Assembly (NCBI RefSeq): GCF_003666605.1
Contig: NZ_RCIV01000001.1
Location: 248,001-312,000 of the forward strand
Direction: 5' to 3'
From: Propionibacterium australiense
GTDB lineage: Bacteria > Actinomycetota > Actinomycetes > Propionibacteriales > Propionibacteriaceae
DNA: 64,000 nt
Of this stretch, positions 38,150 to 46,721 are shown one piece after another. The notes under the pieces were generated by a model. The model searched no databases and was not told the origin of the DNA. It saw only the letters and a list, made by a program, of their open reading frames with translations. Position 1 is the stretch's first letter; each line of letters starts with the position of its first letter. Position numbers and translations under genes: made by a program.

Positions 38150-38318
38150 CACACGCCTCCTTGGTTCAGGCGTCCGGTCCATCAGTGGACCGACTGTGTC
38201 TCCAGTTTATGACCCGCCCTGCCTCTGTGAAACGCCAATCCCGAATCAATTCCGGCACCAGCACGGCGTGGCGGCGCCGGCGGCCCTCGGGGCATCATGC
38301 CGGCGAGCCGCAGAACCT

Positions 38319-38358
38319 GGCGCCGGGCCGGTGACCCGGTGGTCACCGGCCCGGCGCC
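38319..38358 (-). terminator. Hairpin downstream of LPXTG adhesin
   Basis: An 18-bp stem (38319-38336 with 38341-38358) with the 4-base loop CGGT lies 36 bp after the adhesin stop. There is no T-run. Confidence 0.7.
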
Positions 38359-38394
38359 GACGGCGCTGAGGGGCGTGGCCCGCTCAGCGGCCGG

Positions 38395-41298
38395 TCATCG
38401 GCTGCGCCTGCGCAGGAACGACACGGCAGCCAGCGCGCAGAGCGCCACGGCCGAGAGCCCGGCCGCACCGGCGCCGGTCCTGGGCAGACCGGACGGGTGC
38501 GTCGAACTCCGCCTGGGCGACTCGCTGGGCGAGGGGCCCGGGGCAGGCGCGGAGGATTCCGGGGTCCGATCGGGGGTCGACGGGGTCGGCGTCGGGACCG
38601 GCGCGTAGGCATTCTCGAAAGTGGTGGTGACGACCTGGTCCTTCTCCGAGATGGTCACCGTCTGGTCCTGTGGGGCGTCCAGCGTGTGATTCGGCACCTC
38701 GGCTGACGAAGTGTCCTCCGAGATCGTGCACTCGGTACCCAGCGGGAAGGACCTGTCGGCCGTGACCGCCGCGCCGTCGCCCTTGACCGTCAGCGAGCCG
38801 GTCTGACCATCGGAGCAGTCATAGGTGAAGGTGAACTCCTTGTCACCGGCCGAGGCACCGGACACCGACTTCGCGATGGAGAAGGTGCCGCGGTGCAGGG
38901 TGTACGTGTTCGTCGCGGCGATCGCGATCTCGGCGTTGTCCGTCACGTCAAAACCGACGCTGGGGCCGGACTCCTCCTGGCCGTTCACGGTCAGGGTCGT
39001 CACCAGATCGGTGTCGGCAACCCCGGCGTCGCGCTCGGTCACGGTGCAGCGGCCGACCGGGACATCCCCGACACTGGCAGCCGCGCCGGCCTCGACCGTC
39101 AGTTCGCCGGACACGGTGCCCTCCCCGGCCGCATTGGTGCAGTCGTAGTCGAAGGTGAACGATCCGGGGGCCAGCGGGGCGCCATCGCCGTCAACGGTCT
39201 TGGCGATGGTGAACCCGCCGACCAGCCGCGTGTAGTCGTTCGTCACCGTCAGCAGGAGCGCAGCGCTTCCAGAGATGGCCACGGATGGGTCCGAGTAACT
39301 CGTCGCCACCACGTAGCCGTCGCGTTCGGCACTGCCGGCGTCCTCGGTGATCGTGCATACGATACCGGCCGACAGCCTCGGGCTGAGCACTTCGGAGCCG
39401 TCGCCGGGCACCTCCAGCGAACCCTCCGAACCGTCGTCACAGCGGTAGTTGACGGTGAACATCTCCGGGGACGAGGCCTGGTAGTCACCGGTGACCAGCT
39501 TCCTCACGAGGAATGCACCCTCATCACGGGTGTAGTTATTGGTGAACGAGACCGGCACCGGAGTCGTCGCGTCCGAGATGGTCACCGTCTGGTCCTGTGG
39601 GGCGTCCAGCGTGTGATTCGGCACCTCGGCGGACGAAGTGTCCTCCGAGATCGTGCACTCGGTACCCAGCGGGAAGGACCTGTCGGCCGTGACCGCCGCG
39701 CCGTCGCCCTTGACCGTCAGCGAGCCGGTCTGACCATCGGAGCAGTCATAGGTGAAGGTGAACTCCTTGTCACCGGCCGAGGCACCGGACACCGACTTCG
39801 TCACCGAGAACGTGCCGAGGGCGGTCACCTGGTTGCTCAGGCTCACTGCGACGGAGGTCTGGTCACCGATCGTCAGGGTGTTGGTGGTGCGGTTGCCGAT
39901 GGTGAAGACGGGATCGCCCCAGGTGTAGCCGTCGGGGGCCGGGGAGGCCGATGACGTGTCCTCTTCCAGGGTGATCCGCGTACCCGCCGGGAAGGTGCTC
40001 GGGTATGGGTTCTTCTGGCCGACCCGGACCGTCATCGTCGTGGAGCCGGTCCTGCGATCGGCGTTGAGGGTGCCGGGAGCCGTCCAGCCCTCGTAGGCCG
40101 AGGCGGCTGCGGGCAGTTCGTAGTTCACGACGACCCTCAGGCTCGTTCCGTCGGGCACATTGCCCGCGCCATTGCCGCGCAGCAGCTTGGTGATGTCGAA
40201 TCCACCGAAACCGGCCGCCATCTCGACCGAGATCGAGAAGGAGTCGACGTAGTAGCGTTCTGCGCTGCCCGTCTGGTTCAGACCCTGGAGGGTGACGCTG
40301 TTCTGGTACTGGAAGCCCTTGACGACGCTGCCGCCCGGGAACACCGCGTCGTAGACGATGAAGTAGTTGGTCTCGGGGGTGAAGGGGCCGGTCACCGTGA
40401 TGGTGGCGGTGTTGCCCTCGGTGGTCATCGTCATGTCGAAGTCGCCGTAGACGTCGGTCAGGTCCTCGCCGGCGGCGTTGACGATGGGGGCGCCGGCCTC
40501 ACGGCCCGGGTCGGTGGCGCTGTTGCGCATCAGGAGCCGGGCCCGGGTCATGTCCGTGGAGAAGGTCATGCCGTCGCCGAGGGTGTCGGTGAAGGTGAGG
40601 GTCTGGTTCGTCGAACCGTCGAAGACCATCCCCGTGTCCTGGGTCAGGCTGGTGGTGTTGAAGTTGATGCCCCACTGCACGCTGGTGGCGTTCTCGGCAA
40701 TGGCGCCGCCCCACTTGGACAGTGAGCCCCACCGGCCGTAGTCGGGGCCCGGGATGCCCCCGCCCCCGGGGAGCTCAACGGCCGTGACGGTCCCGTTCGC
40801 CGTGATGTTCGCCGTCCTGCTCGTCGTGCTCGTCGTGGCGACGAACAGGGCCTGCCCCGTGCCGCTGAAGCTGGTGAAGCCCGAGTTGCGGAGCTCGTCG
40901 ACCGTGTCGTCGAAGGTGCAGACGACCCGTGTCCTCGTCAGTTCGCAGCTGCCGATCTGTTTCTCGGCGCCGTCGTAGAGGATCGACATCGGGGTGGTCT
41001 TCGGGAACTCGAGGTTCCTGAAGTTGGCGCCGAGGTCGATCGAGAAGGAGTCGCCGCTCTTGACGTTGGCGTTGGTGGCGTCCCAGGAGAAGGACAGCTT
41101 CGCGTAGCCGCCGACCTCGATCTTGCCGTCCTGGGTCTCGCCGCCGACGGTGGAGCGCACCAGGGTCAGGTTCGAGACGGTGATGGCCGAGTTCTCCTCG
41201 GCCCTCGCAGGAGCAGCCGCGTTGAAGACGGTGAGCATCAGGGTGAGCACGAGGAACAGGGCGCCGAACGGGCGCCGCACCAAGCGGGTGCGCGACAT
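38395..41298 (-). CDS. LPXTG-anchored adhesin with DUF5979 repeats
   Basis: A 967-aa secreted surface protein. A signal peptide covers about residues 1-33 (ending PARAEE). Residues 35-370 look like tandem Ig-type adhesin folds related to collagen-binding or SpaA-type N-terminal domains. At least four DUF5979-type beta domains follow, starting near residues 495, 595, 695 and 803, each with the (S/R)(V/I)xK motif and paired Cys. A Pro/Ser/Thr-rich wall-spanning region leads to the sorting signal LPRTG (938-942), a hydrophobic segment and RRRSR. The sortase at 10419-11087 is the candidate anchoring enzyme. Two domains are almost identical at DNA level. Confidence 0.88.
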   Translation of the reverse strand: MSRTRLVRRPFGALFLVLTLMLTVFNAAAPARAEENSAITVSNLTLVRSTVGGETQDGKIEVGGYAKLSFSWDATNANVKSGDSFSIDLGANFRNLEFPKTTPMSILYDGAEKQIGSCELTRTRVVCTFDDTVDELRNSGFTSFSGTGQALFVATTSTTSRTANITANGTVTAVELPGGGGIPGPDYGRWGSLSKWGGAIAENATSVQWGINFNTTSLTQDTGMVFDGSTNQTLTFTDTLGDGMTFSTDMTRARLLMRNSATDPGREAGAPIVNAAGEDLTDVYGDFDMTMTTEGNTATITVTGPFTPETNYFIVYDAVFPGGSVVKGFQYQNSVTLQGLNQTGSAERYYVDSFSISVEMAAGFGGFDITKLLRGNGAGNVPDGTSLRVVVNYELPAAASAYEGWTAPGTLNADRRTGSTTMTVRVGQKNPYPSTFPAGTRITLEEDTSSASPAPDGYTWGDPVFTIGNRTTNTLTIGDQTSVAVSLSNQVTALGTFSVTKSVSGASAGDKEFTFTYDCSDGQTGSLTVKGDGAAVTADRSFPLGTECTISEDTSSAEVPNHTLDAPQDQTVTISDATTPVPVSFTNNYTRDEGAFLVRKLVTGDYQASSPEMFTVNYRCDDGSEGSLEVPGDGSEVLSPRLSAGIVCTITEDAGSAERDGYVVATSYSDPSVAISGSAALLLTVTNDYTRLVGGFTIAKTVDGDGAPLAPGSFTFDYDCTNAAGEGTVSGELTVEAGAAASVGDVPVGRCTVTERDAGVADTDLVTTLTVNGQEESGPSVGFDVTDNAEIAIAATNTYTLHRGTFSIAKSVSGASAGDKEFTFTYDCSDGQTGSLTVKGDGAAVTADRSFPLGTECTISEDTSSAEVPNHTLDAPQDQTVTISEKDQVVTTTFENAYAPVPTPTPSTPDRTPESSAPAPGPSPSESPRRSSTHPSGLPRTGAGAAGLSAVALCALAAVSFLRRRSR
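38645..38873 (-). repeat. 229-bp intragenic repeat, copy nearer the C-terminus
   Basis: This copy matches 39572-39800 over 229 bp with a single mismatch (38704 against 39631). It encodes one DUF5979 domain at about residues 809-885 of the adhesin. The unit offset is 927 bp, exactly 309 codons. Confidence 0.97.
39572..39800 (-). repeat. 229-bp intragenic repeat, copy nearer the N-terminus
   Basis: This is the partner of 38645-38873 and encodes residues of about 500-576. The intervening DUF5979 domains have clearly diverged, so the near-identity of these two copies points to recent gene conversion or duplication. Confidence 0.97.
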
Positions 41299-41477
41299 GA
41301 ACTATGAACCTTCCGGCAATCATTCGGTGGCGGGGGTGCGCAGATGCTTGGAAACTGAACAATGGTACGCGGACGATCCCCGGCTTAGTCAAATCGCTGG
41401 GCGTGTCGCCGGCTCCGGGCCACAGCCACGGCTTTTTCATCCTGGAGTAAACTTGGCCGGTCCCCGGCACAGGAAGA

Positions 41478-43750: not shown

Positions 43751-43768
43751 CGGCCGGCTCGCCGGCCG
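43751..43768 (+). terminator. Short hairpin after helicase gene
   Basis: CGGCCGGC, loop TC, GCCGGCCG forms an 8-bp stem 57 bp after the helicase stop. It overlaps the first bases of the left 64-bp direct repeat. Confidence 0.4.
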
Positions 43769-43825
43769 GGCCTCACCGAGCCCCTGACTCCAGCATGGCG
43801 AGGATCCTGCGGGTCGCCGCCGAGC
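43762..43825. repeat. 64-bp direct repeat, left copy (att-like)
   Basis: Identical over 64 bp to 44634-44697. It carries a copy of the last codons of metF in the minus orientation, ending in SGAR and a TGA at 43775-43773. Flanking bases on both sides differ from the right copy. Confidence 0.97.
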
Positions 43826-43848: not shown

Positions 43849-44199
43849 TCACGGGTCCTGTTCCAGGCAGATCAGGAGTTCATCCAGTTGTTCCAGCAGA
43901 CCTGGCAGGTCATTCTTCGCGGTGACGATGAGGATCTCGGTGTCAATGGACCAGTAGCCGTGAACGATACGGTTGCGCAGGCCAATCGGCCTGCGCCACA
44001 CGATGCCGGCATGCTGCTCACGGAATTCCTGCGAAAGGCTGGCCGCTGCCTCGCCAAGGACCGTGTAGTTCCACAGCAGGGCATCGACGCGGTCCCGCTC
44101 CCGTTCCGGCTCTTGCAGGTCTGACGCCCCGACGATGTCGACGATCCGGGCAGCGGCCGCACGCATCTCATGAACGTACAGGTACTCAGGCCGCCTCAT
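43849..44199 (-). CDS. hepT: HepT-like HEPN toxin
   Basis: A 116-aa HEPN-domain protein (DUF86), the toxin of a type VII toxin-antitoxin pair. HEPN toxins of this group are ribonucleases. The catalytic motif RX4-HXY is complete: Arg75, His80 and Tyr82 in RNRIVHGYW. In studied systems the Tyr is AMPylated by MntA to silence the toxin. ATG 44199 lies inside the end of mntA (14-bp overlap), which gives coupled translation with the antitoxin first. Codon use is less GC-biased than in the flanks, which suggests acquisition. Confidence 0.92.
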   Translation of the reverse strand: MRRPEYLYVHEMRAAAARIVDIVGASDLQEPERERDRVDALLWNYTVLGEAAASLSQEFREQHAGIVWRRPIGLRNRIVHGYWSIDTEILIVTAKNDLPGLLEQLDELLICLEQDP

Positions 44200-44482
44200 A
44201 AAGCGTCTCCGCCTCGGCAACGACACGGTCACGGATCACCGGATGAAGTGAGCGTCGGGACACCAGGTCAACAGGCCTCCCGAAGAGTGCCGCCAAGGAG
44301 TCGGACAGGTCCTCGATCTCCCAGCCGAGAGAACGATCTGCTTCCAGGGTGTACAGCAGGTCAACATCACTGTCCGAGCATTCCTCACCCCGGGCGAAGG
44401 ACCCGAAGACCTCAAGGCGCGCAAGACCATAGCGTCGGCACAACTCGGCAAGACGCGGGAAATCGATCTGGAGGTCGCCCAT
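44186..44482 (-). CDS. mntA: MntA-like nucleotidyltransferase antitoxin
   Basis: A 98-aa minimal nucleotidyltransferase. The motif GSX10DXD is intact with Gly27, Ser28, Asp39 and Asp41 (GSFARGEECSDSDVDLL). This family neutralises HepT by transferring AMP to its Tyr. ATG 44482 is used. TATGCT at 44495-44490 lies exactly seven bases upstream, so the transcript may be leaderless, although GAAGAG is also close. The 151 bp between this start and the right repeat hold no gene. It precedes and overlaps hepT. Confidence 0.92.
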   Translation of the reverse strand: MGDLQIDFPRLAELCRRYGLARLEVFGSFARGEECSDSDVDLLYTLEADRSLGWEIEDLSDSLAALFGRPVDLVSRRSLHPVIRDRVVAEAETLYEAA

Positions 44483-44633
44483 GCTCTTCAGCATAACGAG
44501 AGGAACCACTGCGGATTCAGTCCTCGCCCCACACTGTCACCGTCGATGCGTGCCGTCTCGGAACTCATCGCACGGCAGGCACAGCGACAATCGCCGGCGA
44601 GCAGCGGGCCAGCCGTGTCGGACTGCTCAAACC

Positions 44634-44697
44634 CCGGCCGGGCCTCACCGAGCCCCTGACTCCAGCATGGCGAGGATCCTGCGGGTCGCCGCCGAGC
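44634..44697. repeat. 64-bp direct repeat, right copy within metF 3' end
   Basis: Identical to 43762-43825. It covers metF coding bases 44645-44697 including the stop, plus 11 bases after it. Confidence 0.97.
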
Positions 44698-45583
44698 GGT
44701 TCTGCGTGAAGAACTGGATTCCGGGTGCCCCGCCGGCGAGCAGTTCCCGAGCCAGTTCGGCGCAGATCTGCGCGCCGGTGCTGCGCACCTGCTCGGGGTC
44801 CTCGGCGACGGCCTGCAGACGAGTCACCATCTCGTCGGGCAGCGGCGCCCCGGACAGCTCGGCGAACTTGTCCACCTGCCTGATGTTGGTGACCGGCATC
44901 TTGCCCGCGATGATGGGCATCCGGCAGCCGGCGACACGCAACCGGTCGACGAGCCGGTGGTAGGCGGCCGGGCGGAAGAACAGCTGGGTGATGGCGAACT
45001 CGGCGCCGGCGGCCTGCTTGTCGCACAGCACGCGCACGTCGTTCTCGGCGGTCGAGCCGGGGTGCACGTCGGGGAAGGCGCCGACACCGACGCAGAACTC
45101 GCCGCGGCTCTTGATGAGTTCCACCAGTTCCGTGGCGTTGGACAGCCCCTGCGGGTGCTGCTGCCAGGGCACGAGCGGGCCGCCGGGCATGTCGCCGCGG
45201 ACGGCCAGGATGTGCCGCACGCCCATCTCGCCATAGCTGTCGATGACGACCCTCAGCTCGTCGACGCTCTGGCCGGTGCAGGTGAGGTGGCCCATGACGC
45301 GCAGCCGGGTGCTGGCGAGAATGTCGCGCACGGCGTCCAGGGTGCGCTCCCGGCTGGAGCCGTTGGCGCCGTAGGTGACCGAGACGAAGTCGGGATGCAG
45401 CGGCTCGAGCCGCTCGATGGCGCGGTGCAGGATGGCCTGCCCCTCGTCGTCGCGGGGCGGGAAGAACTCGGCGCTGATGGTCGGGCGGTCGGCGCGGGCC
45501 AGCAGCTGCGCGATGGTCTCGTCGGGACAAAAGTCCAGCCGGTCCTGCGGCGCCACTGCATTGGGACGGTACTCGTGCTGCAC
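44645..45583 (-). CDS. metF: Methylenetetrahydrofolate reductase
   Basis: FAD enzyme reducing 5,10-methylene-THF to 5-methyl-THF, the methyl donor for methionine synthesis. The 312-aa barrel has SAEFFPPRDDEGQ, FVSVTYGANGSSRERT, HLTCTGQS, ILAVRGDMPG, GAEFAITQLFF, PIIAGKMPV and the C-terminal GAPGIQFFTQNRS. GTG 45583 is used because TACGCT (minus strand 45596-45591) ends exactly seven bases before it, implying a leaderless message. The last 16 codons are duplicated beyond the adjacent TA island. It is divergent from the polyprenyl synthase gene. Confidence 0.95.
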   Translation of the reverse strand: MQHEYRPNAVAPQDRLDFCPDETIAQLLARADRPTISAEFFPPRDDEGQAILHRAIERLEPLHPDFVSVTYGANGSSRERTLDAVRDILASTRLRVMGHLTCTGQSVDELRVVIDSYGEMGVRHILAVRGDMPGGPLVPWQQHPQGLSNATELVELIKSRGEFCVGVGAFPDVHPGSTAENDVRVLCDKQAAGAEFAITQLFFRPAAYHRLVDRLRVAGCRMPIIAGKMPVTNIRQVDKFAELSGAPLPDEMVTRLQAVAEDPEQVRSTGAQICAELARELLAGGAPGIQFFTQNRSAATRRILAMLESGAR

Positions 45584-45590
45584 GCACACC

Positions 45591-45613
45591 AGCGTACCGG
45601 CACCGGTTAGGCT
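45591..45613. promoter_or_regulatory. Divergent leaderless promoters, metF and prenyl synthase
   Basis: The 37-bp gap between divergent GTG starts holds TACGCT on the minus strand (45596-45591) and TAGGCT on the plus strand (45608-45613). Each -10 ends seven bases before its GTG, so transcription should begin at or next to the start codons. No good -35 or Shine-Dalgarno was seen. Confidence 0.5.
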
Positions 45614-45620
45614 GCTGGAC

Positions 45621-46721
45621 GTGACCATGTTCAACCCCGCGTCCCCAGCCGGCCGGCCCTTCCGGGACGCCGTCGGCGAGCAGCTGAGCGGCTTCCTCGA
45701 CGGCGCCTGCGCGCGCCTGTCCCAGATCTCGCCGTCGCTGGCACCACTGGGCGAACTGGCCCGCGCCTTCACCGCCGGCGGCAAGCGGCTGCGGCCGGCC
45801 TTCTGCTACTGGGGGCACGCAGCCGTCGCGGGTCAGCCCGCAGACCCGGCCCCGCTCGTCGCCGCCGCCGCGAGCTTCGATCTGCTGCACGTCGCGATCC
45901 TCATGCACGACGACGTCATCGACGACTCCGACACCCGGCGTGGCCTGGCGGCCGTGCACCGCCAGTTCGAGGCCCTTCACGCCGGGCGCACCGGCCCTGA
46001 CGACCCGGTCGCCCTCGGACAGGCAGGCGACCCGGTCGCCTTCGGACGAGCAGGTGCGATCCTGCTCGGTGACCTGCTCGCCGCCTGGTCCGACGAGCTG
46101 GTCTGGGAATCGGGTTTCTCCCCTGCCGCGCTGGCCGCCGCGCACCACGTGCTGGACGGCATGCGCACCGAGGTCAATGCCGGCCAGTTCCTCGACATGG
46201 CCGCCGAGGCCGGGCTGTCCGGCGGGGAGGATCCGGTCGCCGTCGCCGAACGCGTCGTCGAGTTCAAGACCGCCCGCTACACGGTCACCCGTCCCCTGCA
46301 GTACGGCGCGGCCCTGGCCGGAGCGGACCGGCCGACGCTCGACGCCCTGGCCGGGCTCGGCTCCCCGCTGGGACGTGCCTTCCAGTTCCGTGACGACCTG
46401 CTCGGCGTCTTCGGCGACGAGCAGCTCACCGGCAAACCCGCCGGTGACGACCTGCGCGAGGGCAAGCGCACCGTGCTCATCGCCGAGGCACAGGCCGTCA
46501 CGCCCCTGATCCTCGACTTCCTCGGGCGTCCGCTCGACGACTCCGAGCTGTCCCGGGCCCGGGCCCTGCTCGTCGACTGCGGCGCCCGGGCCCGTGTCGA
46601 GGAGCGCATCGCCGCCGATGGCGCCCGGGCCCGTGCCGCCCTGGACCGGCTCGAGATCACCGACGAGGGGCGCACTGCGCTGGCCGGGCTCATCGAGGCC
46701 TGTCTGGTCAGGGACTTCTGA
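45621..46721 (+). CDS. Polyprenyl diphosphate synthase
   Basis: A 366-aa trans-isoprenyl diphosphate synthase. The first Asp-rich motif is LMHDDVIDDSDTRRG, and the second FQFRDDLLGVFGDEQLTGKPAGDDLREGKRT. GGKRLRP binds the diphosphate of IPP. Chain length cannot be read safely, but a menaquinone side chain (octa- or nonaprenyl) or geranylgeranyl product would be usual. Start GTG 45621 is preceded by a -10 at leaderless distance; ATG 45627 is an alternative. A nine-residue imperfect tandem repeat (DPVALGQAG / DPVAFGRAG) lies just before GAILLGD. Confidence 0.92.
   Translation: MTMFNPASPAGRPFRDAVGEQLSGFLDGACARLSQISPSLAPLGELARAFTAGGKRLRPAFCYWGHAAVAGQPADPAPLVAAAASFDLLHVAILMHDDVIDDSDTRRGLAAVHRQFEALHAGRTGPDDPVALGQAGDPVAFGRAGAILLGDLLAAWSDELVWESGFSPAALAAAHHVLDGMRTEVNAGQFLDMAAEAGLSGGEDPVAVAERVVEFKTARYTVTRPLQYGAALAGADRPTLDALAGLGSPLGRAFQFRDDLLGVFGDEQLTGKPAGDDLREGKRTVLIAEAQAVTPLILDFLGRPLDDSELSRARALLVDCGARARVEERIAADGARARAALDRLEITDEGRTALAGLIEACLVRDF
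46002..46055 (+). repeat. 27-bp imperfect tandem repeat in prenyl synthase gene
   Basis: Units 46002-46028 and 46029-46055 differ at a few positions and encode DPVALGQAG and DPVAFGRAG. The duplication keeps the frame and falls in a loop between conserved helices. Confidence 0.85.

Follow-up and report, generated by a model that had tools for sequence, protein, structure and literature searches.

Near-identical cores of two non-neighbouring stalk domains in an adhesin-like gene of Propionibacterium australiense: a probable case of gene conversion

INTRODUCTION

How do two stalk domains of one gene, separated by two others, come to share almost the same DNA, and can such a pair change the length of the stalk? 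The question is raised by a gene in a 64,000-nucleotide stretch of contig NZ_RCIV01000001.1 of Propionibacterium australiense, which is called the window here and to which all positions refer unless a locus is named. P. australiense NML 98A072T is described as an isolate from bovine granulomatous lesions (PMC6256612).

RESULTS

Architecture of the gene product. The positions of the gene and its parts are given in Table 1. The protein matched DUF5979 (PF19407, CnaB-like) in Pfam with 256.8 bits at a cut-off of 25, and five genomic DUF5979 matches above the cut-off lay inside the gene. A survey places DUF5979 among the CnaB-like families, with Lys, Glu and Asn as the isopeptide triad, and counts DUF7926 as CnaA-like (PMC12617251). 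The three residues were present at the expected places in D2 to D5, where the bond itself is predicted, while the simple Glu pattern used for the triad gave no match in D1.

Table 1. Positions of the adhesin-like gene and its parts in the window
Feature	Position	Strand	Basis
Wall-anchored adhesin-like gene, 967 aa	38395..41298	minus	ORF, DUF7926 and five DUF5979 domains
N-terminal head, residues 31-344	40267..41208	minus	predicted model; fold like MSCRAMM ligand-binding regions (UafA, ClfB, FnBPA)
D1, first DUF5979-type domain, residues 365-494	39817..40206	minus	domain match
D2, residues 495-593, candidate isopeptide triad K501/E552/N587	39520..39816	minus	domain match and residues
D3, residues 594-693	39220..39519	minus	domain match
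D4, residues 694-803	38890..39219	minus	domain match
D5, last stalk domain, residues 804-902, K810/E861/N896	38593..38889	minus	domain match and residues
Near-identical core tract of D2, codons 500-576	39572..39800	minus	self-alignment
Near-identical core tract of D5, codons 809-885	38645..38873	minus	self-alignment
LPRTG sorting motif, then hydrophobic stretch and Arg-rich tail	38473..38487	minus	sequence

The predicted structure of the whole protein had a mean pLDDT of 73.7 and a pTM of 0.37. The modelled head aligned to UafA, ClfB and FnBPA with Z scores up to 13.2 at an rmsd of about 11, parts of it having a pLDDT below 50; the value for UafA (3is0; VIA-align Z 13.2, rmsd 11.1 over 235 residues) denotes likeness of fold only. 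The modelled stalk domains resembled pilin domains (3b2m, Z 12.3, rmsd 4.8 over 195 residues). A search of PDB sequences with an alignment-based profile gave no match at E 0.01. The protein is thus predicted to have a head of MSCRAMM type and a stalk made up of five DUF5979 domains, all CnaB-like, and the name adhesin is an inference from this modelled fold and the wall anchor. Beyond the 3' end of the gene, a 40-bp stretch (38319-38358) matched its own reverse complement at 90% and is possibly a terminator hairpin.

Genomic setting. The adhesin-like gene was found in none of the three congeners searched, and the idea that it is common to the genus was rejected. In one congener (G001) the DUF3040 and helicase genes, its neighbours in the window, lie next to each other; about 3.2 kb (38237-41450, the adhesin gene alone) is missing there, and the DUF3040 and helicase alignments end about 40 bp apart. 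In the other two (G002 and G003) a dnaE2-like and a dinB-like gene, both putative and named from ORFs, lie between DUF3040 and helicase. Because the gene is absent from the congeners, it was either gained in P. australiense or lost elsewhere.

Elsewhere in the window, an exact 64-bp direct repeat (43762-43825 and 44634-44697) surrounds a HepT-like/nucleotidyltransferase pair (43849-44232 and 44186-44509, minus strand). One of its copies is the 3' end of a metF-like gene (44645-45784). As the helicase and metF ends abut in G002 and G003, this toxin-antitoxin-like pair looks inserted beside metF together with a copy of the metF 3' end.

The near-identical tract. The first-pass annotation had described two 229-bp copies, differing at one base, in an LPXTG gene whose neighbouring DUF5979 domains are well diverged. 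Each part of this description held: self-alignment recovered both copies at an offset of 927, the gene encodes an LPRTG motif and five DUF5979 domains, and the nine domain pairs other than D2-D5 had only 49-55% DNA identity, their longest exact matches measuring 8-14 bp. The D2-D5 pair contains an exact run of 169 bp. Neighbouring stalk domains were 38-40% identical in amino acids and 49-54% in DNA. The sole mismatch of the tract (T at 38704, G at 39631) gives TCA versus TCC on the coding strand, both Ser, and is synonymous.

The tract covers part of each domain of about 99 codons, not the whole; it begins one codon ahead of the candidate isopeptide Lys and stops shortly before the final strand, which bears the Asn. 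Outside these limits identity drops to the level of diverged paralogues, with partial similarity as far as 38893. Between D2 and D5 of the window gene the core was identical at 75 of 75 residues (99.6% in DNA), while the ends agreed at 8 of 24. When the 38 mismatches in 297 aligned bases were placed at random, a run of 229 with at most one mismatch arose in none of 100,000 trials, the longest being 102.

One synonymous change in 57.7 sites corresponds to a dS of 0.018 for the tract. The adjacent helicase gene had a dS of 0.352 against the nearest congener compared, and the exchange is thus far younger than the split from that congener. No donor copy was found elsewhere in the genome, where the six DUF5979 matches comprised the five in the adhesin-like gene and a weak one on another contig. 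This second locus (L007, contig C23, 2991-3311) scored 30 bits and lies in a 943-aa frame.

Genes compared. The comparison set the window gene against 14 relatives in the genus Actinomyces, to which A. oris belongs, giving 15 genes; A. oris P6N, A. naeslundii NCTC 10301 and A. bowdenii DSM 15435 were among the relatives. In a first search 12 genomes matched; G117 was dropped as having no last-type domain and G126 (L119) as having no frame with at least two domains, G114 was not taken in, and second loci of G115 and G119 were left out. In a second search 15 genomes matched, all of which except G117 entered the 15-gene count. The gene is split over two contigs in both A. oris and A. naeslundii, and the pairing of the halves was assumed. 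One genome per species was compared; P. australiense has a second sequenced strain, 98A078. Searches for relatives on plasmids and on viral contigs gave no match.

Cores and ends in the relatives. Distinct ends for D2-type and last-type domains were present in all 15 genes. In 8 of 8 genes the ends of the window D2 were closer to the relatives' D2 ends; for the ends of the window D5 this held in 0 of 8. In 12 of the 14 relatives the cores were distinct as well, with 47-61% amino acid identity between D2 and the last domain. The other two were A. oris (core 64 of 74 residues, 86%; ends 8 of 24) and A. naeslundii (core 61 of 74, 82%; ends 9 of 24). In DNA their D2 cores were 0.83-0.90 identical to last-domain cores in the A. 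oris group, but only 0.66-0.72 identical to those of D2 in the five unconverted genes nearest to them. Their D2 ends showed the reverse, with 0.83-0.91 to the D2 ends of the same five genes and 0.49-0.58 to last ends. This contrast is the pattern expected if the last domain converted the D2 core, and sequence of the last-domain type appears to have overwritten the D2 core in both species while the D2-type ends were kept. The exchange in A. oris and A. naeslundii is a separate and older case than the window tract. Taken together, the cases indicate that the same non-neighbouring pair has exchanged in at least two lineages.

When the protein tree was constrained to unite all D2 cores, the resulting topology was not rejected (p-AU 0.202), and the unrooted DNA tree of the A. 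oris group was compatible with all D2 on one side. The case for conversion rests on the core/end contrast and the distances. The window core was placed weakly with last-type cores in the 11-gene tree (78/86) and with D2-type cores in the 15-gene tree; of ten diagnostic core columns, four were last-like, three D2-like and three neither. With this shifting placement and the mixed columns, copying in P. australiense may have run either way.

Three further similarities were seen among stalk domains. In G070, of the same family, D2 and D5 share 234 bp at 99.6% with an offset of 933, and a run of N follows the second copy (L013, 1400-4700); this parallel to the window pair adds to the case for exchange. 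In G144 (L146) the last stalk domain is tandemly duplicated, recently and at 0.94 DNA identity, the first copy having the tail type of the preceding domain. At L016 and L077, D2 and D3 are 0.88-0.89 alike in DNA.

Origin of the tract. Abrupt edges inside otherwise diverged homologues, together with positional ends, are a hallmark of gene conversion and were found here. Because identity stops inside both domains and the ends keep their positional signature, it is very probable that a recent ectopic recombination within the gene, a gene conversion, gave D2 and D5 their near-identical cores. The cores would have been exchanged with both ends of each domain left as before, probably in a single copying event and not by several crossovers. 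The near-identity is itself the product of an exchange confined to the domain core, a point which the first-pass annotation missed.

Stalk length variation. The converted pair now presumably forms a 229-bp direct repeat able to recombine. Such an event would leave a stalk 309 residues shorter, consisting of D1 and one D2/D5 hybrid domain. The first-pass annotation had proposed this 927-bp change as a source of adhesins of different length, suggesting a mechanism of stalk-length or antigenic variation; none of the sequences compared pointed to antigenic variation. A deletion from long to short stalk is physically plausible by analogy with direct repeats in Deinococcus, where copies of 438 bp lying 1,479 bp apart were reported to delete at a median of 6.5x10^-4, and about 4.8-fold less with one mismatch (PMC4627823). 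The expected fusion of D2 and the last domain was nevertheless present in 0 of 13 complete genes. The remark that the change would keep the reading frame was correct and uninformative, as the spacing of homologous domains that share a frame is always divisible by three. More generally, recombination altering the stalk was borne out insofar as the D2 and D5 cores have recombined, with each other or with a common source, and domain number differs among relatives; the window gene has four stalk domains after the first and the 12 complete relatives have five to seven. The predicted D2/D5 fusion was not part of this variation.

It might be supposed that recombination repeatedly remakes short and long adhesins and that selection for this variability keeps the pair near-identical. 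Frequent deletion between direct repeats of such kind elsewhere (PMC4627823), the length variation of related stalk proteins by intragenic recombination (Periscope Proteins, PMC8201768), and the varying domain number among relatives with the recent tandem copy in G144 all speak for such a length switch. The differences actually observed, however, are gain or loss of middle domains or a tandem copy and not the predicted deletion, the fusion is missing from every complete gene, the comparison spans one genome per species, and conversion alone accounts for the identity. A selected length switch is thus unlikely. A broader form of the idea is that D2 and the last domain are a kept recombination pair. 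Repeated conversion would then preserve a long direct repeat while the intervening domains diverged, the misfolding cost of identical neighbours would be avoided, and a single step would turn a long adhesin into a nearly stalkless one or back, as a non-tandem counterpart of Periscope Proteins recurring in Propionibacterium and Actinomyces. This reading is speculative and distinctly improbable on the present evidence.

Other explanations of the identity. Reads of one core could have been misplaced into both domains during assembly. The assembly is a draft of 63 contigs (2,996,433 bases), and related drafts break inside the domain array (A. oris, A. naeslundii) or have an N gap there. Reads reported for NML 98A072T of up to 301 bases, merged with FLASH and assembled with SPAdes (PMC6256612), are nevertheless long enough to span 229 bp, and the two copies are distinguished by one base within a single contig. 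The A. oris and A. naeslundii copies are diverged, which misplaced reads would not yield. An artefact is therefore very improbable. A search of the contig ends of these two genomes for shared repeats as a sign of collapse found short words only, the longest of 29 bp, so repeat collapse is no more than a possible cause of the breaks. Recent duplication of the whole of D2 or D5 into the other position would explain high identity over 229 bp, but a tandem or block copy would have brought along ends and neighbours, while here identity ends within both domains, each has position-specific ends, and the intervening 698 bp are unrepeated; contradicted by the end signatures, it was rejected as hardly credible. 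Strong selection on the protein, holding both cores alike without recombination, would account for the 75 identical core residues but is contradicted by the near-identity of synonymous sites (1 of 57.7 changed) and by the divergence of D3 and D4 of the same family, and was dismissed as next to impossible.

DISCUSSION

Probable gene conversion confined to the domain cores sets this gene beside several known systems. The exchange would be one between two domains of a single gene, with no donor cassettes elsewhere, unlike mgpC of Mycoplasma genitalium, whose donor copies are reportedly situated elsewhere in the genome. Both have in common that recombination alters an adhesin gene (PMC2169797). 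With the MSCRAMM adhesins (UafA, ClfB, Cna) the window protein shares a sorting motif and, in the predicted model, a similar head fold and a CnaB-like stalk, a two-domain IgG-like make-up of the head being putative; DUF7926 and DUF5979 are separate sequence families, and ligand binding by the head is putative.

The Periscope Proteins (SasG, Rib/alpha C, Sgo0707) are described as wall-anchored and fibrillar adhesin-like, with an N-terminal head and a stalk of repeated domains (PMC8201768, PMC9704523), and in these respects they resemble the window gene, as they do in near-identical stalk DNA and intragenic recombination. Their stalks consist of highly similar neighbours arrayed in tandem, and variation in stalk length is documented (PMC8201768, PMC9704523), whereas in the window gene only two non-adjacent domains share a core. 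The LPRTG anchor is present; the head fold is predicted to be MSCRAMM-like and the adhesive function is putative. None of the titles listed on gene conversion in LPXTG proteins or on adhesin domains evolving in concert concerned the DUF5979 family.

The results indicate that CnaB-like adhesin stalk domains can swap cores even when several domains lie between them, and that one and the same pair has done so in more than one lineage. The near-identical cores may also be the cause of breaks and gaps in short-read assemblies of such genes. If deletion occurs between the two domains as well, it would provide a one-step change of adhesin length in a gene that is overlooked by searches for tandem identical repeats.
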